64,000 nucleotides of DNA, taken from Nitrosomonas mobilis (GTDB lineage Bacteria; Pseudomonadota; Gammaproteobacteria; Burkholderiales; Nitrosomonadaceae). Location: positions 62,001-126,000 of the forward strand of contig NZ_FMWO01000020.1 in assembly GCF_900103035.1 (NCBI RefSeq). Direction: 5' to 3'. The notes under the pieces were generated by a model. The model did no database searches and was not told where the DNA came from. It saw nothing but the letters and a program-made list of their open reading frames with translations. This document shows, piece by piece, positions 1 through 38,505 of the stretch. Numbering within the stretch: the stretch's first letter is position 1; each line of letters begins with the position of its first letter. The translations under genes and the position numbers were made by a program.

Positions 1-369
1 CGGGATTTGACCGACTCGACGGTGTTGCGCAATATGGGCGTGGCACTGGGGCATACCTTGCTCGCCTATGATTCCTGCCTGAAGGGGCTGGGCAAACTGG
101 AAATCAACCCGACGCGCTTGTCAGCGGATTTGCAGGATGCCTGGGAGGTGCTGGCGGAACCAATTCAGAGCATGATGCGCCGTTATGGGATCGCCAATCC
201 TTACGAGCAACTCAAAGATTTGACCCGAGGCAAGACCGAAATCAATCAGGAAACATTGCAAAATTTCATCCGCCAGCTCGATATTCCGCAAGCTGAAAAA
301 GACCGCCTGTTGCGGCTTTCCCCGCAAACATACATTGGATTGGCTGCCCAATTGGCCAAACGTATCTAA
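1..369 (+). CDS. purB: Adenylosuccinate lyase, C-terminal part (5' end outside window)
   Basis: The reading frame is open from the first base (RDLTDSTVLRN...) and gives the last 122 residues of adenylosuccinate lyase. This enzyme cleaves SAICAR and adenylosuccinate with release of fumarate in purine synthesis. The segment with DSTVLRNMGVALGH and the helical tail around YEQLKDLTRG are typical of the C-terminal helical domain of proteobacterial PurB. About 330 residues, including the catalytic serine loop, would lie upstream of the window. It is followed by a 127-bp gap and grpE on the same strand. The family call is safe; only the truncation by the window edge limits it. Confidence 0.93.
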   Translation, partial: RDLTDSTVLRNMGVALGHTLLAYDSCLKGLGKLEINPTRLSADLQDAWEVLAEPIQSMMRRYGIANPYEQLKDLTRGKTEINQETLQNFIRQLDIPQAEKDRLLRLSPQTYIGLAAQLAKRI

Positions 370-4434: not shown

Positions 4435-7400
4435 TTACCCTGGCTGAATGGTAGGGGGTAAAATTGTCGCCTGCCTGCGTGGCTGGTTGTATAAATGTAC
4501 ATCCAGTTGTGGGAAGGCGATATCGATGCCTGCTTCTGCAAAACGGTGATTGATTGCCATATTGATTTCATGGGTCAACTTTAGTCTGTCCTGTAACAGT
4601 TCACAAAATACTCTTAACTCGAAATTCAGCGAACTATTACCAAAATTCACAAAATAAGCGGAAGGCTCCGGATCTTTCAATACAATCGGATGTTCGCTTG
4701 CAATTTCCAGTAATAGCCTGCGGGCGGTTTCGCAGTCTGAGCCATAGGCGATCCCCACTGGTAACACAATACGTGTTATCTGGTCGCTCAATGACCAGTT
4801 AGTCAACTGCTGTGTGATGAATATCTTGTTGGGTACCACGATCTCCTTGCGATCGAAATCAATCAGCGTGGTTGCACGAATATGGATTTTATTGACGGTT
4901 CCGGTAGTAGTGTTGAGCGTTACGAGATCGCCCACGCGGATGGGTCGTTCAAAAAGCAGGATGACACCGGATACAAAATTGGCAAAAATTTCCTGCAATC
5001 CAAATCCCAAGCCCACTCCCAAGGCAGCCACCAGCCATTGAATGCTCGACCATTCCATACCTAATGTCTGAAAGGTAGCGGTAACCCCTGCCACTACAAT
5101 CACATATCTCAGCAGGGTGGTGATGGCATAGCCCGTGCCGGTATTGAGTGATAAGTGACGCAGAACCAGCAATTCCAGTGTGCCGGGAAGATTATGCGCG
5201 GCAATGATTGCGAGACCAAATACGATCAATGCAACCAGCAATGCTTTGAGCGTAATGGACTGTGAGACGATTTCCCCATCAATTTGTGAAGAGGTTTGCC
5301 AGAGCGTGATTTTTTCAAGAAAACTGAGAGCAGGCAGGACATCGATCCAGATTCCTAGCAATGCGGTGATCAGTAATCCCCAGATGCCAATTTTCAGTAA
5401 AGTAGCGGATTGCCTGCTGATGGTTTTGACATCGACATAATTTTCATCAATCCAGTCTGCTTCGCTTTTGTCCGGTTGCGCGCGCTGTGCGCGGATTTCT
5501 TCTCTTCTTTCGATGGCGCGCTTGTATGCGATTTGCCGCTGGACAATCAGCAGGCTACGGGAACTGACGTAATACAGCAAGGTGAAGAATGTAACCCAGC
5601 TCAGTGACTGGAAGACCAGAATGTACTGGTAGATTGCGGCAAAATAATATCCGATCAGCACCATCGTGATCATGTAGCCTTGCAGCAGAAGCAGGGCGGT
5701 CATCCAGTATTTCGGACTCAACACTGGATTGAACACCATACCTTGGTAAAACTGTTTGGCCTTGCGGCCAAATCCTATCCAGCTTGATGCGAATATCGCC
5801 AGGAGCAGGCAAAGCAGTACAAAGGCGAACCGACCAAGCATATTGCGCACCTGATCTTCATCCAGCGCATCCATAAAGGCGATCAGGACGACAAGTACGA
5901 CGATAAACGGAGCAAACCGTTTGATGTCATGGCGCATTTTATTGACGAGTTTCTCATCGCATTTGAACTGGTGGCTGAGTAGACCGCTGGGACGAAACAG
6001 CAGCAGTAAAAATGCCCAACAGAAAATTGCAACGGCGGCAACCTGCAGACTGGCGGCCATGGCATGCCCTATTTCTGAAGATGAGTTATTCTGAATGATC
6101 GTGACGGCTAATTGCCATGGCAGGAAAAAATATCCGGCCACCACAATGCAATTCATCAACATGCCAAATGGATAGATCAGTCTGTCCTGGTTGACCTTGC
6201 CGCGCAGACTGTTGCCAGTTGCTTCCCAGCGCAAATAAGCTGGCCAGTATACCGACCTGAACAGGATGAAAAACAGGGCATAGATGCTAAATATTGCCAC
6301 CAGTTCCTGCCATGAAGAACTGATTGTTTTGGTGAAACTGCGTTGTGTTTTGGGTGAGTCAAACCAGTCGAGTGCATTGTGAAAATCCTGCGGTGTTATC
6401 TGTGTTACGGGTTTGGCGCTGCGGGTAACCAGCAGATTTTCCCGCAGCAAGACCTGATGCTGTTCTATTTTTTCAGTCAATTGAGTCTGAATAGATAAAT
6501 AGAGCTGGAGTTCCTTAATATAGCCTTGTAATACATCAGCATACTGCTCGACGACTTGTTCGCGTGATTGTTTCAGTTTCTGGAAGGTATTGGTCAGTTC
6601 CTTGTATTCGGCAGAGTCGGCAGATGGTATCTCCGTATTTTTAAGAAAGTGTTGCACGGTTTTCATGTTATCCATGATTTGCAACCGTTCCTGCTCCAGT
6701 TGATATAGATCGAGTTTCGTATTGCTCAGCTCACGTTCTGTTCGTGATGTATCCGGCTTGATCATGATTTTCTTGAACTGTTTTCTGATATGCGTTCCCA
6801 GATCAGTATCTTCTCCCCCAAGTTCGAGTCGCTGTTGAAGCGCTATGTGGCTTTGTGCGATTAGCGCAAAACGATTTTCATCGTGAGCCCTCTGATTGGT
6901 GAGCTCTTTAGTGCGTTTGGCGTAATCATTTAACTTCTGGGCCAGTGATTTGTTATCTGCAGCCAATTGTTTCAATTCCGGGTGATGCTGAATTTTTTCG
7001 TCAGAAAATTGCTCGGATTGCTCAATTACCTGTCTAGTCTCGGCCATGCGTCTGAGGTTGATTTCGCCGATTAGCAATTCCATTTGCTGAGACAGGTTCT
7101 CGATTTTCGGGATTAGTAGCAGCTTTTCCTGTAGGGAAATAATTTCTGCGGCATATGGAAGAATCAGCGTTTCCAGCTCGAGCATTCTGGTTTTGTCGGT
7201 TAACGCCTGGAATTGAGCATCACGCAGACCAGTAAGCGCATTTAGTATTTTTTTGTCGGTATCCTTTGAGGTAACTGCCGGCCTTTCGTTGAGCGCGGAA
7301 CGCTGATTGAGGATAGAAGCCAACTCCTCCTGAATGCTGTCCATGCGTTGACGTAACTGTGCTTGATCCGAAATAGATTTTTGTTGCTGATTTTTCAACT

Positions 7401-7794
7401 CTGAGAGACTTGCCTGAACGGTAACCAGTTGTCTTTCTAGCTCGTTTAAGGTTGATTTGATTAATTGCCGGGAAGTTATTCCTGCTTCTGATGGAATTTT
7501 ATGTTGTCTTAGTGTGGCGATCTGCTGCGGATAGCTTTCCAGTTGTTGCGAATAATTGGCCGTTTTATCAAGATAATCCTGATGATCACGGAGTATCTGC
7601 AGATGTTCGCTGAATATTTCGCGCAACCGTTTTTTTTGTGGTGTTTCTTCAGGATTAACTTCACCTAGTGCACCAAGTTTTGCCTGCATTGCCTGGAGTT
7701 TATCGTCGAGTTTGTTTGCATGACACATTGTGATATTGGTCATTGTCAGCAGGGTTAATAGCGACATGACGGCAATAAACAAAAATTTATTCAT
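4435..7794 (-). CDS. Giant MscS-family mechanosensitive channel (MscK/KefA-like)
   Basis: 1119 residues from the chosen ATG at 7794, which begins a clear signal peptide (MNKFLFIAVMSLLTLL...). An upstream in-frame ATG at 7896 would bury that signal, so I reject it. Residues about 30-490 are a long, Gln/Glu/Leu-rich periplasmic coiled-coil region. About eleven membrane segments follow (about 498-960). The last is the MscS pore helix region GLGFGLQEIFANFVSG (about 930), followed by the MscS beta and C-terminal domains. The architecture matches MscK/KefA and MscM, which release osmolytes on hypo-osmotic shock; whether it is K+-gated cannot be judged. No strong ribosome site is visible. Confidence 0.88.
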   Translation of the reverse strand: MNKFLFIAVMSLLTLLTMTNITMCHANKLDDKLQAMQAKLGALGEVNPEETPQKKRLREIFSEHLQILRDHQDYLDKTANYSQQLESYPQQIATLRQHKIPSEAGITSRQLIKSTLNELERQLVTVQASLSELKNQQQKSISDQAQLRQRMDSIQEELASILNQRSALNERPAVTSKDTDKKILNALTGLRDAQFQALTDKTRMLELETLILPYAAEIISLQEKLLLIPKIENLSQQMELLIGEINLRRMAETRQVIEQSEQFSDEKIQHHPELKQLAADNKSLAQKLNDYAKRTKELTNQRAHDENRFALIAQSHIALQQRLELGGEDTDLGTHIRKQFKKIMIKPDTSRTERELSNTKLDLYQLEQERLQIMDNMKTVQHFLKNTEIPSADSAEYKELTNTFQKLKQSREQVVEQYADVLQGYIKELQLYLSIQTQLTEKIEQHQVLLRENLLVTRSAKPVTQITPQDFHNALDWFDSPKTQRSFTKTISSSWQELVAIFSIYALFFILFRSVYWPAYLRWEATGNSLRGKVNQDRLIYPFGMLMNCIVVAGYFFLPWQLAVTIIQNNSSSEIGHAMAASLQVAAVAIFCWAFLLLLFRPSGLLSHQFKCDEKLVNKMRHDIKRFAPFIVVLVVLIAFMDALDEDQVRNMLGRFAFVLLCLLLAIFASSWIGFGRKAKQFYQGMVFNPVLSPKYWMTALLLLQGYMITMVLIGYYFAAIYQYILVFQSLSWVTFFTLLYYVSSRSLLIVQRQIAYKRAIERREEIRAQRAQPDKSEADWIDENYVDVKTISRQSATLLKIGIWGLLITALLGIWIDVLPALSFLEKITLWQTSSQIDGEIVSQSITLKALLVALIVFGLAIIAAHNLPGTLELLVLRHLSLNTGTGYAITTLLRYVIVVAGVTATFQTLGMEWSSIQWLVAALGVGLGFGLQEIFANFVSGVILLFERPIRVGDLVTLNTTTGTVNKIHIRATTLIDFDRKEIVVPNKIFITQQLTNWSLSDQITRIVLPVGIAYGSDCETARRLLLEIASEHPIVLKDPEPSAYFVNFGNSSLNFELRVFCELLQDRLKLTHEINMAINHRFAEAGIDIAFPQLDVHLYNQPRRQATILPPTIQPG

Positions 7795-7963
7795 ATGTTT
7801 CAATTTGTTGGTGTTATGTGGTGAAGTGACATGTATCAAATAATGAATGTCACGTGAGTGTAGCGGTGTCGCCGTATTATATCTGTCGGCTATCATGCGC
7901 CAATGTGCAAGTTAGACGTGGTTTTCATTGAATGAGTAATGGGTGTTGGGGCTTAAAATCAAG

Positions 7964-8086: not shown

Positions 8087-8280
8087 TTTTCCTATCGACT
8101 GATAAAACATTACAAGAGGTTAAAAAACATTATCTTGACTCGCTTGCTCGTAGAAACCTGTCCTCACATAGCGTGGAAAAGCAGGCCGATCCAGATAAAG
8201 TAACCGTCAGGACGCAAGAGTCATCACTGCCCGATGCACAGTGGCATCGCAGTAAAACAGCCAGATTTTCGCGGTATTGA
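8083..8280 (+). CDS. Hypothetical 65-aa protein
   Basis: Starts at ATG 8083, which has a good ribosome site (AAAGGAG, 8068-8074). A longer in-frame version from GTG 7966 would start inside the 34-bp palindrome and has no ribosome site, so I reject it. The product is soluble and polar: MIFLSTDKTLQEVKKHYLDS begins an amphipathic helix and the rest is Ser/Arg/Gln-rich and probably disordered. I recognise no domain. It is followed after 71 bp by the RIO-type kinase gene on the same strand, with which it may be co-transcribed. Confidence 0.55.
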   Translation: MIFLSTDKTLQEVKKHYLDSLARRNLSSHSVEKQADPDKVTVRTQESSLPDAQWHRSKTARFSRY

Positions 8281-8351
8281 TTTCGTAACTGCGAAGTGGC
8301 ACGTTTCTGATTCGATAAATTAGTGACCCAGCTAACAGGAGATTGAAGACT

Positions 8352-9227
8352 ATGAAAACACCTAGCAGAATGGAACCGCTGATCGAAGAAGGGCTGATTG
8401 ACTCGGTTGTCTGCGAAATCATGAGTGGCAAGGAGGCGATGCTTTATGTTGTGAAATGCGGGGAAGAGTACCGCTGTGCCAAAGTATACAAGGAAAAACA
8501 GAAGCGAAATTTTCGGCAGAATTCCTGCTATCTGGAAGGACGGGAGATTAACAGCCGTCGTCGCTCCCGTTTTGTGCGCAGCAGCAGTAATTTTGTGAAA
8601 ACCATTCGGGATGATGCCTGGCACAGCGTGGAGGTGGATACACTGGGCCGGTTGACAACGGCCAACGTGGTTATCCCAAAATTTTACAACTTTTTTGAAG
8701 GGGTGCTGTTGATGGAGTTGATCGTGGACAGCAATGGCAGTGTTGCGCCGAGATTAAATCAGCTGGAGTTGACAGCAGATCAAGCCAGGATCTATCACGG
8801 TTTTCTCATTCAGCAGGTGGTTCGTATGCTCTGCAGCGGTATCGTGCATGGCGATCTCTCCGAATATAACGTACTGATTGGTAACACCGGTCCGGTTATC
8901 ATCGATTTTCCACAGGCTGTTCATGCCGCGTACAACAATAGTGCAGAGGCAATCCTGAAAAGAGACGTGAAAAATATTGCTGCCTTTCTTGGAAAATTTG
9001 CACCCGAGCTTGCCTATACGGACTATGGCAGTGAAATCTGGTCACTGTATCAAACAGGTAAGCTACATCTGAACGTTAATCTGACCGGGCAAATTGAACT
9101 GTGTCGTAAACCGGTTAATCTGGATGTGGTATTGAGTGCTATTAATATCGCCATAAAAAAAGAAACTGCATGGCGGCGCTACAAAAGCGAACGGTGGACT
9201 AGCGAGCGGAGATGGCAGTGTTCTTGA
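8352..9227 (+). CDS. RIO-type serine/threonine protein kinase
   Basis: 291 residues. The N-lobe has the RIO-like pattern around EEYRCAKVYKEKQKRNF, with the probable ATP-binding Lys in CAKVYK. The C-lobe carries the catalytic loop HGDLSEYNVLI (His166, Asp168, Asn173) and the metal-binding IIDFPQ (Asp185), which replaces the DFG of ordinary kinases as in RIO proteins. RIO1/RIO2 kinases mature the small ribosomal subunit in eukaryotes and archaea; bacterial members occur but their targets are unknown. ATG 8352 is chosen because AGGAG (8337-8341) is correctly spaced; a TTG at 8343 is too close to it. The tail (about 270-291) is Arg/Trp-rich. Confidence 0.85.
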   Translation: MKTPSRMEPLIEEGLIDSVVCEIMSGKEAMLYVVKCGEEYRCAKVYKEKQKRNFRQNSCYLEGREINSRRRSRFVRSSSNFVKTIRDDAWHSVEVDTLGRLTTANVVIPKFYNFFEGVLLMELIVDSNGSVAPRLNQLELTADQARIYHGFLIQQVVRMLCSGIVHGDLSEYNVLIGNTGPVIIDFPQAVHAAYNNSAEAILKRDVKNIAAFLGKFAPELAYTDYGSEIWSLYQTGKLHLNVNLTGQIELCRKPVNLDVVLSAINIAIKKETAWRRYKSERWTSERRWQCS

Positions 9228-27344: not shown

Positions 27345-27929
27345 ATGACTTTTTCACGAATTGTCCTGGGTTCTAGCTCTGTATATCGGTGTGAGCTGCT
27401 TGCGCGTTTGAAGATTCCGTTTGAGACTGCAAATCCTGCAATTGATGAATCTGCATTACCTGATGAAGTGCCATCGGCAACTGCGCTCAGATTGGCTGCG
27501 GAAAAGGCGCATGCAGTGGCGGGGCAGTTTTCTGATGCGCTGATTATTTCAGCCGATCAGGTGGCAATATTAGCGGGACATCGCTTGGGAAAACCACTTA
27601 ATCACGCCAATGCTACTAGTCAGTTACGCCAAGTGCGTGGTAAGGAAGTAGTATTCCATACGGCGTTGTGTTTGTTGAACAGTCGCTCCAAACGTATTCA
27701 ATCTTGTGTTGTGCCAAGTGTGGTGCGGTTTCGGCAGGTGAGTGACAGTCAGATCGAACGCTATCTGGCTAGAGAGCAGCCGTATCACTGTGCTGGCAGT
27801 GCGAAATCGGAGGGCTTGGGCATTGCGCTGATTGAGCGTATTACTGGTGATGACCCCAACGCCTTGATTGGCCTGCCGCTGATCGCACTGGTGGAAATGC
27901 TGGGCAACGAGGGCGTGGATGTGTTGTAA
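27345..27929 (+). CDS. Maf-family nucleotide pyrophosphatase (YceF type)
   Basis: 194 residues. [15 protein letters not shown] at the N-terminus, ISADQV and the [10 protein letters not shown] block are the Maf signature. These enzymes hydrolyse non-canonical nucleotides. The position next to yceD-rpmF-plsX matches E. coli yceF, which favours the m7GTP-specific subfamily over YhdE (dTTP/UTP). It is divergent from yceD across a 120-bp promoter region. Confidence 0.9.
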
Positions 27930-27975
27930 CCAATCGCGGATAGCTTACTCGCCTGCCGACACAACCAAGCTCAAT

Positions 27976-29331
27976 ATGCGGTCCTGGATGCACATTGGAC
28001 GTGCTATGGCAGGTTTGATCCTGGTTGTAACTGGCGTGCTGGTGGTGCTGGGCGACGTTGCTGTTGCTCAGACGAGTTCTCCGGTTATGGATCAGTATAT
28101 TGATCGAGAGGCGAGTCTGCCGAATATGGTGAGTATCAACACGCTCACTTTGCCACAGGCACTGGAGCTTGTTATGCAAAATAACCCTGAATTGACCGCT
28201 GCCGCCAGGGAGATCAGTGCGCTTGAAGGTACCAAACTGCAGGCCAGTGTTTTCAGAAATCCCGATTTTATTACTGAAACCGAAGAAATTAACTCGCACA
28301 ATCGCAATATCCAGCCGTTCGTCACGCTGCGCATCAGCCAGTTGTTCGAGCTGGGCGGCAAGCGGCACGCCCGGATGAATGTGGCAGGAATGAGTCAGGA
28401 AGTGGCGCAGCAGGCTTATGAAGTCAAGCGTGTCGATATCATGGCGCGTACGGCAGATACCTTTATTGATGTGCTGGAAGGACAGGCGCTGGTGGATGTG
28501 CTTGAAAACACCCTGCAATTGACCGAACTCGCGTTAAGCACTGCTAATAAGCGCGTTGCAGCGGACAAAGCTCCTCCGATGGAGGCGATTCGCTCCAAAG
28601 TGAATTTATCCACGGTCGGTGTCGAGCTGGAACAGGCCAGGCGCAATCTGGCGGCGGCAAAAACCAGATTAGCCTTGCTGTGGGGAGAGCACACACCACA
28701 ATTCAGCCTGGTGCAGGGGGAGCTGGAATCATTCGTAACTATTCCAGGACTCGACCGCCTGCTTGAATATATCGAGACAAATCCAGTGCTGCTACAAAGC
28801 AGCAAGCAAATTACGCAACGTGAAGCGATGCTGGATCTTGAAAATGCGCGCCGTATTCCGGATATCCGGCTAGGTGCAGCCATTCGCCGGTATCTGGAAC
28901 TAGATCAGAATACTGCCTTGCTTGACATGTCGATACCCATTCCGATTTTTGACCGTAATCAGGGCAATCGACTGGAGGCGCAGCAGCGAATTTATCAGGC
29001 ACGCGATCAACGCATGGCTGTCGAGCTCCAGTTGAGAACTGAATTGACACGTGTCTATGAGAGCCTGCTGGCAGCACAGAGAGAAACACAGACACTGCGC
29101 GATGAAGTGTTGCCTGGAGCGCAAAAGGCATTTGAATTGACTAACCGTGGCTATCAGCTCGGTAAATTCAGCTTTCTGGAAATGCTAGATGCACAACGTG
29201 TCTTTTTCCAGAACCGAACGCTTTATGTGCGTGCACTCGCTAACTACCAGCGGCTGGTTAATGCGCTCGAACGGCTGGTGGCCGCACCGCTAGAACATTT
29301 CACTATCCGCCGCAACGGAAATAATCAATGA
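27976..29331 (+). CDS. czcC: Outer-membrane efflux channel (CzcC-like, TolC family)
   Basis: About 451 residues. A signal peptide (residues about 5-35, ending VAVAQT) precedes two outer-membrane-efflux repeats rich in helical Glu/Gln/Arg (TLPQALELVMQNNPEL; RGYQLGKFSFLEMLDAQRV). The latter is typical of CzcC/CnrC proteins of heavy-metal RND systems. The start is uncertain (ATG 27976 or 27988; neither has a good ribosome site). It overlaps the adaptor gene by 4 bp (ATGA) and forms one operon with the next two genes. Confidence 0.88.
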   Translation: MRSWMHIGRAMAGLILVVTGVLVVLGDVAVAQTSSPVMDQYIDREASLPNMVSINTLTLPQALELVMQNNPELTAAAREISALEGTKLQASVFRNPDFITETEEINSHNRNIQPFVTLRISQLFELGGKRHARMNVAGMSQEVAQQAYEVKRVDIMARTADTFIDVLEGQALVDVLENTLQLTELALSTANKRVAADKAPPMEAIRSKVNLSTVGVELEQARRNLAAAKTRLALLWGEHTPQFSLVQGELESFVTIPGLDRLLEYIETNPVLLQSSKQITQREAMLDLENARRIPDIRLGAAIRRYLELDQNTALLDMSIPIPIFDRNQGNRLEAQQRIYQARDQRMAVELQLRTELTRVYESLLAAQRETQTLRDEVLPGAQKAFELTNRGYQLGKFSFLEMLDAQRVFFQNRTLYVRALANYQRLVNALERLVAAPLEHFTIRRNGNNQ

Positions 29332-30830
29332 ATACTACACGGTATCTACCTTTTGTCGTGGTGATCCTGATTGGCATTGTGTTTGCTGCCGGAGTTCTTC
29401 TGCTGGACAGATCCGACTCTCTCGTTTCTGCTGAACAGGCATCTTCAACTACCGCTGACGCGGCCCCCGATGCTGAGTCAGAAAAAGGCCCAAAAGGCGG
29501 GCTGTTATTTGCCAAGGATAAATTTTCGCTGGAATTGACCATTTATGAAAAAGGTGTGCCGCCCCATTTCAGGGTTTACCTCTATGAGAGTGGCAAACCA
29601 CTCATTCCTAAAGCTGCAAACGTAACCATCGTGTTGTCACGGTTGGGCAGGGCGGCGGAGGTTTACCAGCTGAGTCCGGCGGCCCATTATCTGACCAATG
29701 ATAAGGAAGTCGAGGAGCCGCATTCGTTTGAAATGGTGATTTCCGCTGATTATGGAGGCAGAACCTACCGCTGGGGGCACAGCCAGATTGAGGGGCGGGT
29801 AGAAATGGATGATACAACTCTTGCCAGCAGTGGTGTCGAAATCGCGACCGCTGGGCCAGCGGTCATTCAGCCGAAAACCACCTTGCCAGGCGAAGTCATT
29901 TTCAATGAGCACCAGATCGTGCATGTTATACCCCGGTTGCCGGGAATGGTGGTGACAGTTCAGGCGCATCATGGCCAGAAGATGAGCAAGGGCGATGTGC
30001 TTCTGGTAATCGAAAGCCCGGCACTGGCCGAATTGCGCAGTCAATACTTGTCTGCGCGCAGTCGCCTACAACTGGCGGAAGCGGTTTTCAAACGGGAGGA
30101 AACCTTGTGGCGGGAGAAAATTACTGCCAAGCAGGATTATCTGGTGGCCAAACAGCAGTGGCAAGAAGCCAGAATTGCAATGCAACTGGCAGCTGAGCGT
30201 CTGCATGCGCTCGGCGTATCACCGGAATCCGGATGGGCAGAAAAAAATCTTGCCCGTTATGAACTGCGCTCACCGATTGACGGCATCATTATTGACAAAG
30301 CGGCGGTGACGGGCGAGGCGGTTCCGGAGAACAAGACAGTTTTCATTGTTGCGGATATTTCAACGGTCTGGGCAGCTGTCAAGGTATTTCCTTCCGATCT
30401 GCACCGTGTCCATGTTGGCCAGAAAGCAGTTATCCGTGCCGATGCACAGGATCTGCAGCAGCAGGGAACGGTAATTTATGTAACAACATTGCTGGATAAT
30501 GTCACTCGTACCGCCATCGCTCGTGTTGAACTTGATAATCACACAGAAAAATGGCGTCCAGGTATGTTCGTCAAGGCAGATTTGTTGGCCAAAGCAATCG
30601 AGGTGCCGGTGGCGGTATCGCTGGATGCTATACAGACACTTCGTGATAGTCCGGTTGTATTTGGCCGCTATGGCGATTATCTGGAGATGCGCCCACTCAA
30701 ACTGGGTGTGAGCGATGACAAGCTAATTGAGGTGGTTGAAGGATTATCGGTCGGTGAGCAGTATGCGATCGGCAACAGTTATGCCATTAAGGCGGAACTG
30801 GGTAAGGCAGGGGCGTCGCATGATCATTGA
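29328..30830 (+). CDS. czcB: RND periplasmic adaptor (CzcB-like)
   Basis: 500 residues. An N-terminal anchor (YLPFVVVILIGIVFAAGVLL) is followed by a periplasmic pre-domain (about 55-160) and HlyD-type barrel-sandwich and hairpin domains (GDVLLVIESPALAELRSQY; YELRSPIDGIIIDKAAV). The adaptor bridges pump and channel. The pre-domain lacks the His-rich metal-binding stretch of classical CzcB; only the tail ASHDH has histidines. It is located in the periplasm and coupled to czcC by a 4-bp overlap. Confidence 0.88.
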   Translation: MNTTRYLPFVVVILIGIVFAAGVLLLDRSDSLVSAEQASSTTADAAPDAESEKGPKGGLLFAKDKFSLELTIYEKGVPPHFRVYLYESGKPLIPKAANVTIVLSRLGRAAEVYQLSPAAHYLTNDKEVEEPHSFEMVISADYGGRTYRWGHSQIEGRVEMDDTTLASSGVEIATAGPAVIQPKTTLPGEVIFNEHQIVHVIPRLPGMVVTVQAHHGQKMSKGDVLLVIESPALAELRSQYLSARSRLQLAEAVFKREETLWREKITAKQDYLVAKQQWQEARIAMQLAAERLHALGVSPESGWAEKNLARYELRSPIDGIIIDKAAVTGEAVPENKTVFIVADISTVWAAVKVFPSDLHRVHVGQKAVIRADAQDLQQQGTVIYVTTLLDNVTRTAIARVELDNHTEKWRPGMFVKADLLAKAIEVPVAVSLDAIQTLRDSPVVFGRYGDYLEMRPLKLGVSDDKLIEVVEGLSVGEQYAIGNSYAIKAELGKAGASHDH

Positions 30831-30856
30831 TATGCGGACGGGTCTTTCTGAACTAA

Positions 30857-34075
<3,219 letters not shown>

Positions 34076-34318: not shown

Positions 34319-34747
34319 ATGATGTCCGAGGAAAAAATACAGCAACCAGTAGCGAGCGATATGAAAAATGACGGATTGGCTGTTGCTCCCCAACTGAAGC
34401 GCAGACGGCTGCTCAAAAGTACGGTCGCGATTCCGGTGATTATGACACTTTCCAGTGGTGCGGCACTGGCACGTACCAGTAACCTGGTCGGGGCTGTCGA
34501 TCTCGGAAATGCAGCTACAGTAACGAATGCGGAAAATCAGTCGCAAATCGTCTGCGTGATACCTGATCCAAATGAAGACCAAACGGGTGCGCCGCCTTAT
34601 GATCTTGGTACTTCGCCACAAGGTATTCTGGGTCCGGCAGATCAGACGCTTGCGGATCAAGCTGTTTTTTGTCAGGGCCAGGGCGGAATTTTAATATCAG
34701 CAACGGCTTTTACCTCGTTGCAGGGCAAAGGATTGCATATTCTTTAA
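34319..34747 (+). CDS. Small Tat-like exported protein, candidate substrate of the downstream cassette
   Basis: 142 residues, no family recognised. An N-terminal stretch of 26 polar residues is followed by KRRRLLK (27-33), close to the twin-arginine consensus S/T-RR-x-F-L-K. A mild hydrophobic segment (TVAIPVIMTLSSGAALA) ends in ALA at residue 51. The mature part would be about 91 residues, Gly/Pro/Gln-rich, with only two cysteines (79 and 118). It is the first gene of a cassette with a PqqD-like protein, an HprK-related kinase and a nucleotidyltransferase. This position and size are what one expects of a modified precursor or exported partner. The function is inferred from context only. Confidence 0.7.
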   Translation: MMSEEKIQQPVASDMKNDGLAVAPQLKRRRLLKSTVAIPVIMTLSSGAALARTSNLVGAVDLGNAATVTNAENQSQIVCVIPDPNEDQTGAPPYDLGTSPQGILGPADQTLADQAVFCQGQGGILISATAFTSLQGKGLHIL

Positions 34748-34748
34748 A

Positions 34749-35045
34749 TTGGATACCTTATCGCAATGGTGCGCGGTTGACTTTGCATCGTTGCGGATGG
34801 TTGATTGGGATGGCGAATTTACCGTTTTTCAGCCTGCTGCCGGTAAAACCCATTTTCTGAACGAAATGGGCCTGCAAGTTCTGATATTGCTTGACCAGTC
34901 ACCTGCGACGCTGGAGCGGCTGTGTCAGCTCCTGGCGGAGCATTTCTCATTATTGCTGGATGAATCCTTCATGCAGCAAATCCAGCAAACATTGCATCGT
35001 TTCGAAGCGCTTGGTCTGGTTGCTTATGTCAATTTTTCCCAGTGA
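34749..35045 (+). CDS. PqqD-like peptide-binding protein (HPr-rel-A system)
   Basis: 98 residues with the PqqD fold pattern: an N-terminal beta-hairpin (FTVFQPAAGKTHFLNEMGLQ) followed by helices (LLDQSPATLERLCQLLAEHF). PqqD-type proteins hold the leader of a precursor peptide for modifying enzymes. From memory, NCBI names this subgroup 'HPr-rel-A system PqqD family peptide chaperone'. The start is a TTG just after the previous stop codon (1-nt gap), so translation is likely coupled. The 3' end overlaps the kinase gene by 4 bp (ATGA). Confidence 0.8.
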   Translation: MDTLSQWCAVDFASLRMVDWDGEFTVFQPAAGKTHFLNEMGLQVLILLDQSPATLERLCQLLAEHFSLLLDESFMQQIQQTLHRFEALGLVAYVNFSQ

Positions 35046-35950
35046 AAGTCGAGCAGCTTTCGCTGGAGGAATTTCGTGCCCGGCTTGGCAGTAAAAATGG
35101 GCTACGGATTCAGTTTGGACCTTTCGTTGTTCGCATTCAGAGTTTTTTACCATCACTTGCTAATCCGTTATATCGATTGTATGCGTTTTATACTTTAGCT
35201 AATGACGATATTGCCGAATTCCACGTACAGATCGTTTCCAAACGTTCACTAAGGCGTCCGTTCACACCTTTTGTGCAGTTCCTGGTGGATGGCCAGGCGC
35301 CCTTTCCCGCTGCCCCTGTCCACCACGCACTGACGATGCTCGAATGGGGTATCAATCTCGCAATCGCCGTGCGTGTCAATCATTTTTTACTGTTCCATTG
35401 CGCCGCGGTCGAGCGTAATGGCCATGTCCTGTTGCTGCCAGCGTGGCCGGGTAGTGGCAAGACGACTTTGTGTGCCGCGCTTATTCACCATGGTTACCGG
35501 CTGTTTTCGGATGAATTCGGTCTAATGCACGTGCAATCGGGTAACTTTTTTCCATTGCCGCGCCTGATGCCGCTCAAGAATCAGGCAATTGGTGCGATTC
35601 GTGATTTTCTTCCTGAAGTCACGCTGGGGCCGGAGATTCATGGCACGCTGAAGGGAACGGTGGCGCATGTACGCCCGCCCGAGGCCAGTATCGATCGTGA
35701 AGATGAGCCGGCAATTCCACGCTGGATTGTTTTTCCCAAATGGACCGCCCATCAGCCGTTACAGCTTGAGGAAATGCCGCGTTCCGAGGCATTTTTGCTG
35801 CTGGCAAGCAATGCCTTTAATTATGAAGTGCTCGGAGAGGTGGCGTTTGACGCCGTCACTGGCCTGATCCAGCGTTGCGAATGCCGCAAACTGGTCTACT
35901 CCGATTTTGACAGCGCACTAGTGGCATTAAATGCACTCACCGATGACTGA
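35042..35950 (+). CDS. HprK-related kinase A
   Basis: 302 residues. The P-loop AWPGSGKTT (134-142; Lys140) and the following HHGYRLFSDEFGLM resemble the C-terminal kinase domain of HPr kinase/phosphorylase, in which the Asp after the P-loop acts in catalysis. The N-terminal 120 residues are not the usual HprK N-domain. The gene order PqqD-like, HprK-related and nucleotidyltransferase defines the uncharacterised HPr-rel-A system. The substrate is unknown; it need not be HPr. It overlaps the next gene by 20 bp. Confidence 0.82.
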   Translation: MKVEQLSLEEFRARLGSKNGLRIQFGPFVVRIQSFLPSLANPLYRLYAFYTLANDDIAEFHVQIVSKRSLRRPFTPFVQFLVDGQAPFPAAPVHHALTMLEWGINLAIAVRVNHFLLFHCAAVERNGHVLLLPAWPGSGKTTLCAALIHHGYRLFSDEFGLMHVQSGNFFPLPRLMPLKNQAIGAIRDFLPEVTLGPEIHGTLKGTVAHVRPPEASIDREDEPAIPRWIVFPKWTAHQPLQLEEMPRSEAFLLLASNAFNYEVLGEVAFDAVTGLIQRCECRKLVYSDFDSALVALNALTDD

Positions 35951-37079
35951 TCGCCGTCTGAACGCACATCACCAGCTGCTGGTACGGGCTTTACGCGACC
36001 CGCCCAGTCTTTGTAATATCAGCAATCAGGACTGGGAATTGCTGTTGCGCCTGGTCAGACGTGCCAGGCTTCTGGGTTTTCTGGCGGTTGAACTGGGAAA
36101 TGCTGGGCTATTGGATAAAATCCCGGTACGCATCGCCAACCACCTGCGCTCCGGTCTGATTCAGGCGCGAAAATATCAACAACTGGCGCGTTGGGAGCTG
36201 GACCGGGTACGGTGGGCGCTGGGTGAAGATCGTGGTCCCATTATTGTGCTCAAGGGTATGGCATATCTGCTGGCAGGTTTACCTCATGCCGCCGGAAGAG
36301 TTTTTGCCGATCTCGACCTGCTAGTACTGGCAGAAAATCTGCAACCAATCGAATCCACCCTGCTGGCAAAAGGTTGGCAACATCATGAACTCTCGGCCTA
36401 TGATGAGCACTACTACCGCGCCTGGACGCATGAAATTCCGGCATTGATTCATCGCGAACGCGAAACTGAAGTTGATATCCACCACACCCTGACTTCCCCT
36501 ATCGGCAGACTGCAACTGGAGGCCGCACCATTCCGGGAAGCGGCGGTCAGGCTGCCCGAGCTGGGAATCTATGTGTTAAGTCCACCAGACATGGTGCTGC
36601 ATTGCGCAGTCAATCTGTTCCAGAACAACGAATTGGCGGACGATATGCGGCATTTGCTCGATTTGCATGGCATGCTGCAACATTTCAGTAGCGATCAGCC
36701 GCTGTTTCTGGATAACCTGATCACGCGCGCCAACCAGCTGAGGCTGGGCAGACCGTTGTTTTACGGCTTGTATTTCTGTCGTTTGCTGTTACGGACACCT
36801 GTTCCGAATACGCTCATGACCAGGCTCGAACAACGCCCAGGGTGGCTGGCACTCAAAGTGATGCAGCTGTGCGTACCATTGGCGCTATTGCCGCTGCACC
36901 CTGATCTACCCTGCAGAGGCGCAAAACTGGCACGCTGGTGGTTGTACTGGCGAAGCCATTGGCTGCGCATGCCGCTGCATGTGCTGGTGCCGCATCTGGC
37001 TTACAAGTTTTACCTGTCAGTATTTCCGTCTAAGGCCGCAAACACTGCCTCAAGCAGGGTCACAGCAAAAACCAAGTAG
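35931..37079 (+). CDS. Uncharacterised nucleotidyltransferase (NTP_transf_5 type)
   Basis: 382 residues; an internal start at Met5 (35943) is also possible. The N-terminal two-thirds contain the nucleotidyltransferase motif AGRVFADLDLLVLAENLQP (GxxxFxDLDLLV) with the metal-binding Asp pair, and ETEVDIHHTL with a further Asp. The C-terminus is rich in Trp, Leu and Arg and may bind the membrane. Proteins of this kind accompany HprK-related kinase A and PqqD-like proteins; the transferred nucleotide and acceptor are unknown. Its 3' end overlaps mgtE on the other strand by 20 bp. Confidence 0.78.
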   Translation: MHSPMTDRRLNAHHQLLVRALRDPPSLCNISNQDWELLLRLVRRARLLGFLAVELGNAGLLDKIPVRIANHLRSGLIQARKYQQLARWELDRVRWALGEDRGPIIVLKGMAYLLAGLPHAAGRVFADLDLLVLAENLQPIESTLLAKGWQHHELSAYDEHYYRAWTHEIPALIHRERETEVDIHHTLTSPIGRLQLEAAPFREAAVRLPELGIYVLSPPDMVLHCAVNLFQNNELADDMRHLLDLHGMLQHFSSDQPLFLDNLITRANQLRLGRPLFYGLYFCRLLLRTPVPNTLMTRLEQRPGWLALKVMQLCVPLALLPLHPDLPCRGAKLARWWLYWRSHWLRMPLHVLVPHLAYKFYLSVFPSKAANTASSRVTAKTK

Positions 37080-38505
37080 CCAGTCCCAGAAAAATAAAAA
37101 AACCACCGCTATCCGTGACCGCGGTGATCATTACGCTGGAGCCGAGCGCCGGATCGCGCCCCAGTTTTTTACGTATCAATGGGATCAAGACGCCAACCAG
37201 TGCCGCGAGCAATAGATTCAGCAACATGGCAAGTGCGATGAGTAGGCCTAGCTGATAGTTTTGATAAAGTGCATAGGTGAACAAGCCGACGACGCTCCCC
37301 CAAATGATGCCGTTGATGATGCTGACGCCGATTTCCTTGGCAATCAGCTTGTACATACTACTCTCCAAGTTGATCTGCCCTAATGCGATGGCACGCACGA
37401 TCATGGTGATGGTCTGGTTACCCGAGTTACCGCCTACACTGGCCACAATCGGCATCAAGGCTGCCAGTGCGACCAGTTTTTCAATGGAGTCCTCGAACAG
37501 GCCAATGACACGCGAGGCGATAAAGGCGGTGATGAGGTTGATGGCGAGCCATGCCCAGCGGTTATGCACACTTTTCCATACTGGTGCGAACAGGTCCTCT
37601 TCTTCGCTCAGGCCGGCCTGATTACGTGCTTCCAGATCAGCCCTTTCGCGCATAAAATCGATGACGTCGTTGACGGTCAGTCGGGCAAGCAGTTTTTGAT
37701 CGGGGGTAATAACCGGTGCGGAAATCAGATCGTAGCGCTCGAATGCCTGCGTGGCTTCTTCAGCTTTGTTATCAGGATGGAATTTGATCGTTTCCCGAGA
37801 CATGACGTCGCTGATGATTTTTTCGGGATCGTTCACCAGAAGTTGGTTCAGGCGTAATACACCTTTAAAGTGCTCTTCACGATCGATGACGAATAACTGA
37901 TCGGTGTGGTCTGGCAATTCACCCAGGCGCCGCAGGTAACGCAACACCACCTCAATACGCACGTCTTCGCGCACTGTAATGACATCGAAATCCATCAATG
38001 CGCCGACCGAATCCTCGGGGTACGACATGGCTGCGCGCAATTGATCGCGTTCTTCCATCGGCAATGCGCGGAATACACCTTCGATGACATCACTCGGCAA
38101 ATCCGGCGCGAGATCGGCAATTTCATTCGCATCCAACTGTTCTGCCGCCGCGACCAGCTCATGACTTTCCATGTCCTCGATTAAAGTTTGCCGAACGGCA
38201 TCCGAGACTTCGAGCAACACTTCCCCGTCACGCTCGCTGGTGACCATTCTCCACAGAATCAAACGGTCTTCCAGCGGGAGCGCTTCCAGAATACGGGCAA
38301 TATCTGCCGAGTGCAGCTTATCCAGCATATTTTGCAGGCCGGCAAAATTCTGTTTCTGCACGATCGAATTGGCCAAATGATGACGCTGATCTTCCTGCAA
38401 ACGAACCAGACCATCCACCAGCTTGTACTTATGCAGCAGGTAAATAACTTTCTGCAGTTTTTCTTCTAGATTTGTATGCTGGCTTTCCTGGTTCTCTTCG
38501 GTCAT
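37060..38505 (-). CDS. mgtE: Magnesium transporter MgtE
   Basis: 481 residues with full MgtE architecture. A cytosolic MgtE N-domain of helical repeats (about 20-140) is followed by two CBS domains (about 145-270) and five membrane helices (about 320-481). The pore segments are PIVASVGGNSGNQT and DPALGSSVMITAVTDSGG. MgtE is a Mg2+-gated import channel; the N and CBS domains sense cytosolic Mg2+. It is a single gene with its 3' end overlapping the nucleotidyltransferase. Confidence 0.95.
   Translation of the reverse strand: MTEENQESQHTNLEEKLQKVIYLLHKYKLVDGLVRLQEDQRHHLANSIVQKQNFAGLQNMLDKLHSADIARILEALPLEDRLILWRMVTSERDGEVLLEVSDAVRQTLIEDMESHELVAAAEQLDANEIADLAPDLPSDVIEGVFRALPMEERDQLRAAMSYPEDSVGALMDFDVITVREDVRIEVVLRYLRRLGELPDHTDQLFVIDREEHFKGVLRLNQLLVNDPEKIISDVMSRETIKFHPDNKAEEATQAFERYDLISAPVITPDQKLLARLTVNDVIDFMRERADLEARNQAGLSEEEDLFAPVWKSVHNRWAWLAINLITAFIASRVIGLFEDSIEKLVALAALMPIVASVGGNSGNQTITMIVRAIALGQINLESSMYKLIAKEIGVSIINGIIWGSVVGLFTYALYQNYQLGLLIALAMLLNLLLAALVGVLIPLIRKKLGRDPALGSSVMITAVTDSGGFFIFLGLATWFLL

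Follow-up and report, generated by a model that had tools for sequence, protein, structure and literature searches.

A candidate RiPP-like protein-modification cassette with a putative twin-arginine-type precursor in Nitrosomonas mobilis

Introduction

The B1 proteins of lasso peptide pathways are PqqD-like recognition elements (RREs) for ribosomally synthesized and post-translationally modified peptides (RiPPs). We analyzed a four-gene cassette of Nitrosomonas mobilis in which a discrete RRE of this kind is encoded together with an HprK-related kinase and a nucleotidyltransferase (NTase), within a 64,000-nucleotide stretch of contig NZ_FMWO01000020.1 (positions 62,001 to 126,000, forward strand), referred to as the window herein. 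We hold it to be somewhat more probable than the contrary that the cassette encodes a RiPP-like pathway for protein modification and export, with the 142-aa product of its first gene as the precursor.

Two kinds of described cluster come closest. The linear polyphosphorylated peptides (LPPs) of Bacillota (Popov et al. 2026, PMC13381572) are described, in the available portion of that report, as restricted to Bacillota; LppK adds several phosphates to Ser3 of the precursor core, and no cyclase is required. Deletion of lppN caused no visible change, and LppN was inactive in its expression system. The same portion states that lasso and LPP RREs bind leaders of the [Y/W]xxPx[LVI...] type, a motif that is also found in pyrroloquinoline quinone leaders, and it makes no mention of Proteobacteria, Pseudomonadota, twin-arginine or TIGR04353. 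For phosphorylated lasso peptides, the accessible sections of PMC9266682 report that PsmK phosphorylates the C-terminal Ser and that PsmN is required for the hexoses on the phosphorylated Ser, with a host glycosyltransferase not excluded. No publication on the HPr-rel-A system, to which the window cassette belongs, was found in the literature searched, and two RRE papers (PMC12710340 and PMC7470986) gave no match to HPr, TIGR04353 or kinase.

Architecture of the cassette

The cassette comprises four genes:

34319..34747, + strand, 142-aa small protein, putative precursor/substrate of class B (an open reading frame, ORF, whose relatives adjoin most cassettes)
34749..35045, + strand, PqqD-like peptide-binding protein (discrete RRE), 98 aa, TTG start, TIGR04353
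35042..35950, + strand, HprK-related kinase A, 302 aa, GTG start, TIGR04352
35931..37079, + strand, NTP_transf_5 nucleotidyltransferase, 382 aa, PF14907

A gap of 1 nt separates the small ORF from the PqqD-like gene, which overlaps the kinase gene by 4 bp; the kinase gene in turn overlaps the NTase gene by 20 bp. The PqqD-like protein scores 72.1 bits against TIGR04353 (PqqD_rel_X, cut-off 35) and 22.6 bits against PF05402, slightly below the cut-off of 23.4. The kinase reaches 339 bits against TIGR04352 (HprK_rel_A, cut-off 200), and the NTase 173.9 bits against PF14907 (cut-off 31.2). Since both curated TIGR cut-offs are passed by adjacent genes, the cassette is a plain member of the HPr-rel-A system, and the two models that define it name no precursor.

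Judging from conserved residues, both the kinase and the NTase look catalytically competent. Residues H119, K140, D157 and E158 of the kinase are invariant among 29 kinases. In an alignment of 60 residues to HPr kinase (1jb1, E 0.003), the conserved residues fall on the H...GKS...DD stretch of that enzyme, with E replacing the second D. In the NTase, K92, G93, R107, D111, D113 and D166 occur at a frequency of 1.00 and G106 at 0.95 among 132 sequences; by sequence, this protein had no match in the PDB at E ≤ 1.

The ORF coordinates agree with the operon layout and overlaps given in an initial annotation of this DNA, and its naming of a PqqD-like protein, an HprK-related kinase A and an NTase is borne out by the family cut-offs. 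That annotation also described the 142-aa protein as lying one nucleotide upstream, with two cysteines and a signal like those of twin-arginine translocation (Tat). The gap, RR28-29 and C79/C118 are as described; the signal is Tat-like by motif only and is missed by the models. Its further suggestion of a modification pathway built on a kinase and an NTase gains support, by analogy, from LPPs and phosphorylated lasso peptides, for which the available parts of PMC13381572 and PMC9266682 describe the same three protein types.

Relation to LPP and lasso clusters

As far as the accessible text of PMC13381572 allows comparison, the trio of a discrete RRE, an HprK-like kinase and an uncharacterised NTP transferase is present in both LPP clusters and the window. 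A further likeness is a precursor with a conserved N-terminus and a variable C-terminus, of which the LPP kinase modifies one serine. In contrast, the LPP leader reads YxxPxVLxHQxIxFETxxS, whereas the window protein has VAIPVIMTL, with no Tyr or Trp three residues before the Pro, in a leader of the twin-arginine type. The LPP cluster contains a SipW-like peptidase, whereas the Peptidase_S26 genes here are on other contigs. LPPs also have an MsbA-like transporter; among the window ORFs, a minority of which were scanned, those nearest the cassette encode a CzcCBA-type efflux system and MgtE. Because the leader motif and the in-cluster peptidase are lacking, we did not file the cassette as an LPP cluster. 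By analogy, we read it as a putative proteobacterial counterpart of LPP in function, with a Tat-type leader.

The paeninodin and pseudomycoidin clusters also share the same three protein types, with a kinase for the C-terminal Ser there and a C-terminal serine motif here, according to the sections of PMC9266682 at hand. Unlike in lasso pathways, most of the substrates proposed here exceed 100 residues, and a lasso cyclase over the cut-off is absent. In the whole genome none exceeds the NF033535 cut-off, the best match (contig C82) scoring 225.8 of 525 bits, so a lasso pathway was rejected. The same sections give His-Lys-Asp-Asp for lasso kinases; the 29 aligned TIGR04352 kinases have H-K-D-E, as far as a comparison with the published residues can show.

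The small gene accompanies the cassette in relatives

Kinases above the HprK_rel_A cut-off were present in 41 of 369 genomes of the class, 61 of 398 of the phylum and 32 of 125 of the window's family. Four partly overlapping sets of loci were surveyed. The class set holds 41 cassettes, namely the window and 40 others above the TIGR04352 cut-off from the 369 class genomes; a hidden Markov model (HMM) of the small protein was seeded on 7 of these first 41 loci and extended on all of them. This model was used to search a second set of 80 named loci collected by kinase homology, at least three of which (L103, L112 and L117) duplicate class-set loci. The phylum set consists of 20 loci chosen among the 61 phylum genomes with a match, divergent ones included, and the 29 window-family loci were searched with the class models A2 and A3. 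Every absence reported at these loci is bounded by the fetched flanks.

In the class set, the small ORF is found upstream of the PqqD gene on the same strand in 40 of 41 cassettes, the window counted; the sole exception, L062, is interrupted by the contig start. A related small ORF was detected by the HMM in 75 of the 80 named cassettes, 73 of them upstream of the kinase on the kinase strand and two (L085 and L127) downstream, and loci L087 and L094 are cut short. The window's family has it at 27 of 29 loci, with L203 truncated. Among the 20 phylum loci, the HMM found 13 small ORFs, to which inspection added those at L181, L182, L183, L188 and L186. Recurring in 40/41, 75/80 and 27/29 cassettes, the arrangement is not due to chance, and these counts refute the proposition, which the initial annotation had set against a substrate role, that the small gene is absent beside most cassettes.

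Several loci deserve separate description. At L088 and L202 a kinase and an NTase are present with no PqqD or small-protein match in view, and the reading frames upstream of L202 are those of L088, a Nitrosospira record. At L131, a record labelled Phycisphaeraceae, an ORF that presumably encodes a transposase occupies the place of the small gene ∼1.2 kb upstream of the kinase. The single cassette of locus L098 is preceded by a pair of class B small proteins, which lie ∼1.7 and ∼0.9 kb ahead of the kinase gene. In Vibrio alfacsensis (L231, 4875-7942), the kinase and NTase are plasmid-borne, and the N-terminus of the "hypothetical protein" upstream of them looks like a class A leader with its motif.

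Two kinds of small protein

After removal of 4 of 157 small proteins showing at least 90% identity, 153 nonredundant sequences were sorted with an HMM of the mature part, which defines class A; the remaining rows are "class B and others." Class A accounts for 78 of the 153 (median ∼217 aa) and class B and others for 75 (median ∼159 aa), lengths that are approximate because start codons were set by script and 13 phylum-set rows were read from stop to stop. The window protein is thus one of two kinds, since about half of the nonredundant small proteins belong to the larger class A with its own predicted folded domain. Shortly behind the leader, 64 of 78 class A proteins carry the motif C..S..S[GANL], as compared with a mean of 7.5 and a maximum of 17 in shuffled sequences. 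Structure prediction for a class A representative (L142, 474-1139) gave confident stretches at ∼71-120 and 161-210; Foldseek found no match for it in the PDB at E ≤ 0.001, and its best VIA-align Z was 2.0, results that are no proof of a new fold. In class B, the body is variable and carries a C-terminal motif, and the two cysteines of the window protein, C79 and C118, are nearly invariant in 23 aligned rows.

The scanned small proteins have no convincing Pfam or NCBIfam family. The window protein had no match in either database at E ≤ 1, no Pfam family matched more than one of 27 class A rows at E ≤ 0.1, and no NCBIfam family matched more than two of 23 class B rows at E ≤ 0.1 (formate_TAT, E 0.016). 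At the extreme, L055 is 39 aa long by the chosen start, which is uncertain, and holds little beyond the leader and CISCNASLI.

A conserved leader

The N-terminal region of the window protein contains two features:

34319..34471, + strand, leader, residues 1-51, with RR28-29, a hydrophobic stretch and ALA51; Tat-type by motif only
34424..34450, + strand, VAIPVIMTL, residues 36-44, proposed RRE-binding element within the hydrophobic stretch of the signal

Class B leaders follow the pattern RR...P..TL.SG.A.A. In window numbering, R28, R29, P39, T43 and G47 are invariant in 23 class B rows, and L44, S46 and A51 are nearly invariant in the same rows. All 153 nonredundant small proteins have RR within their first 90 residues, although the search itself selected such leaders. 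A Pro at +10..13 after RR is found in 66 of 75 class B rows, 36 of 78 class A rows and 25 of 25 window-family rows. As a control, we took TIGR01409 matches from 13 genomes of the window's genus, and of 14 matches 13 were readable; none of these 13 ordinary Tat signals, which are not independent because several are alike, has a Pro at +7..15. An earlier control was dropped, as it held only four sequences, three of which resemble cassette partners. The leader thus appears, by comparison of sequences, to be conserved beyond a plain Tat signal. With class A at 36 of 78 and some alphaproteobacterial leaders lacking the Pro, the idea of this residue as a universal RRE element is weakened. Because the window leader has the Pro and following hydrophobic residues but no aromatic, we infer its role in RRE docking.

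The genome contains a TatC gene. Its two Peptidase_S26 matches are found on C66 and C83, and the cassette is on contig C36.

A serine motif near the C-terminus

Near the C-terminus of the window protein lies one further feature:

34697..34720, + strand, SATAFTSL, residues 127-134, with Ser133 as the proposed acceptor (conservation, motif tests)

S133 is nearly invariant in the 23 aligned class B rows. A loose motif, [ACSG]..S[LIFVMC], is present near the C-terminus in 68 of 75 class B proteins, compared with a mean of 22.0 and a maximum of 33 in 1000 shuffles, and a stricter form is present in 57 of 75 (mean 3.6, maximum 10). Without the window-family rows, the loose form is found in 44 of 51 (shuffles 13.4, maximum 24) and the strict form in 33 of 51 (2.2, maximum 7). 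These shuffles ignore relatedness among the sequences and test the patterns as descriptions only, because the patterns were written after the sequences had been viewed. An unsupervised motif search over 50 tails, an earlier and looser class B list that includes some class A rows, gave a log-likelihood of 220 versus 104-114 in 12 shuffles. Seven class B rows lack the loose motif, including L070, which ends in the related CVNSALGI; five others (L134, L135, L140, L190 and L191) look class A-like in sequence. In class B, the motif serine lies a median of 9 residues (range 2-28) from the C-terminus. Together, these comparisons with relatives suggest that the cassette acts on its own small protein and that the conserved serine carries the tag.

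Small-protein class clusters on the kinase tree

A quick tree was built from 134 kinases (78 with class A partners, 50 with class B partners and 6 unsure), keeping six random rows of the window-family set and excluding the second small protein of L098, which has no kinase of its own. With the six unsure rows outside the class count, 128 kinases are labelled. Substrate class clusters on this tree. The A/B label changes once among the 128, and class B against all others also requires a single change (mean of 500 shuffles 40.3, none as low). This clustering is not simply species descent, because on the B side kinases of the window's family stand among those from Methylococcaceae, Chromatiaceae, Burkholderiaceae and Magnetococcales.

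Genomic setting and distant kinase loci

The cassette is preceded by a CzcCBA-type efflux operon (27919-34075) and followed by a convergent mgtE (37060-38505); the neighbor proteins scanned are efflux components, MgtE, a transglycosylase, shikimate dehydrogenase, a TonB-like protein and RNB. The HprK_rel_A kinase is single-copy in the Nitrosomonas mobilis genome, in which the class B model found no second substrate copy at E ≤ 1. Scans for consensus promoters found 3, with 3.8 expected, and for consensus terminators 8, with 3.2 expected. A defence-system identity was dropped, since the four cassette proteins had no PADLOC match at E ≤ 0.1.

Fifteen further loci (L232-L246) have HprK-like kinases below the cut-off, with a PqqD-like match in 10 of 15 and an NTase-like match in 8 of 15. 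Three of them encode short peptides of ∼60-100 aa (L240 at 7656-7886, 8140-8376 and 8625-8942, − strand; L241 at 6349-6600, − strand; L242 at 6200-6388, + strand), with Tat-type signals that contain the full Y[VI]AP[AV][VI]LTL. The HprK-like kinases at these loci are far under the TIGR04352 cut-off, and L240 also has a PqqD-like gene. By their sequences, these peptides are possibly a separate RiPP-like family with the exact YxxPx[VIL] motif.

Two recurrent neighbors were considered over 141 loci, counts that are bounded by the fetched flanks and include repeated loci. An HtrA/S1C-like serine protease lies near 33 of 141 (e.g., L061, 6462-7250) and was rejected as a fixed member at that frequency. 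XrtA/PEP-CTERM (exosortase) genes lie near 24 of 141 (e.g., L051, L059 and L061), reminiscent of LPP near capsule loci; a link was rejected at this count, with none of the markers in the window stretch given.

Discussion

In the pathway that we propose, the 142-aa protein would be the precursor, and its N-terminal leader would act both as a twin-arginine signal and as the place where the PqqD-like RRE docks, with the conserved Pro-centered stretch VAIPVIMTL as the probable contact. The RRE would offer the precursor to the HprK-type kinase for phosphorylation on Ser133 of SATAFTSL, and the NTP_transf_5 enzyme may then cap the phosphate with a nucleotidyl or sugar group. The modified protein would exit via Tat, and a housekeeping signal peptidase would cut the leader after ALA51.

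A number of observations weigh against this pathway. No small ORF was found within the flanks of L088, L101 and L131 in the named set, of L185 and L187 in the phylum set, or of L202 in the window's family, which displays only a kinase and an NTase; the PqqD model matches 14 of the 20 phylum loci and nothing in the other 6. Regarding the leader, 42 of 78 class A proteins lack the conserved Pro, and the window leader, with its Pro and following hydrophobics, lacks the aromatic residue of [Y/W]xxP. Pfam and NCBIfam Tat-signal models miss the window protein at E ≤ 1, and TIGR01409 matches at E ≤ 0.01 in its own genome are on C7 and C32 only, the window protein not being among them. The window protein also has no confident fold (pLDDT 48.7, from an alignment of only 23 rows), which is odd because Tat export favors folded cargo, and its motif has Ala where many relatives carry Cys. 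On the kinase tree, class A against all others requires five changes (shuffled mean 42.9, 0 of 500 as low), and a single origin of class B is possible rather than shown because the branch separating it has an SH-aLRT support of just 19. The NTase step is the weakest, because LppN was inactive and a host glycosyltransferase is not excluded for PsmN.

The conserved serine might instead receive a phosphate-linked prosthetic group, so that the small protein would be an exported swinging-arm carrier and not a peptide product. We consider this unlikely. The class B motif serine does lie close to the C-terminus, both enzymes retain catalytic-type residues, class A has a well-predicted domain and 1 of 23 class B rows has a weak match, maybe by chance, to "SoxY-related AACIE arm protein" (E 0.015). 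In class A, however, the serine motif stands beside the leader and not on a C-terminal arm, and the very short L055 would leave scant room for a carrier domain.

Alternatively, the RR leader may serve RRE binding only, with the product cut and exported by other means or kept inside the cell. Consistent with this, the Tat models miss the window protein, the conserved Pro is absent from the 13 Tat control signals and LPPs employ a dedicated peptidase with an MsbA-like transporter (PMC13381572, available portion). Yet RR is found in all 153 of the search-selected small proteins, in the aligned leaders a hydrophobic stretch is followed by a conserved Ala and the scanned neighbors include no obvious exporter for the product, which makes this reading rather improbable. 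That the kinase, which resembles HPr kinase, targets another cell protein (e.g., HPr) and that the small gene is carried in the operon without a functional tie is highly improbable, given that the small ORF adjoins most cassettes, that its class clusters with the kinase clade and that its product bears the serine motif.

Returning to the RiPP-like pathway with the 142-aa protein as precursor, we more tentatively extend it, at slightly less than even confidence, to a widespread proteobacterial class. In this class, one sequence would serve as both Tat signal and RRE leader, the product would bear a capped phosphoserine, and the cargo would be of two types, one folded and of ∼200 aa and the other short and variable, with L240-L242 linking the class to LPP and lasso systems.

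Now that a candidate family of substrates and a probable acceptor residue have been put forward, a system of no known product becomes testable. If one leader truly addresses both the RRE and Tat, exported proteins of ∼200 residues would come within reach of RiPP-type tailoring, and a second set of natural substrates would be available for the unexplained NTP transferases in LPP and lasso clusters.

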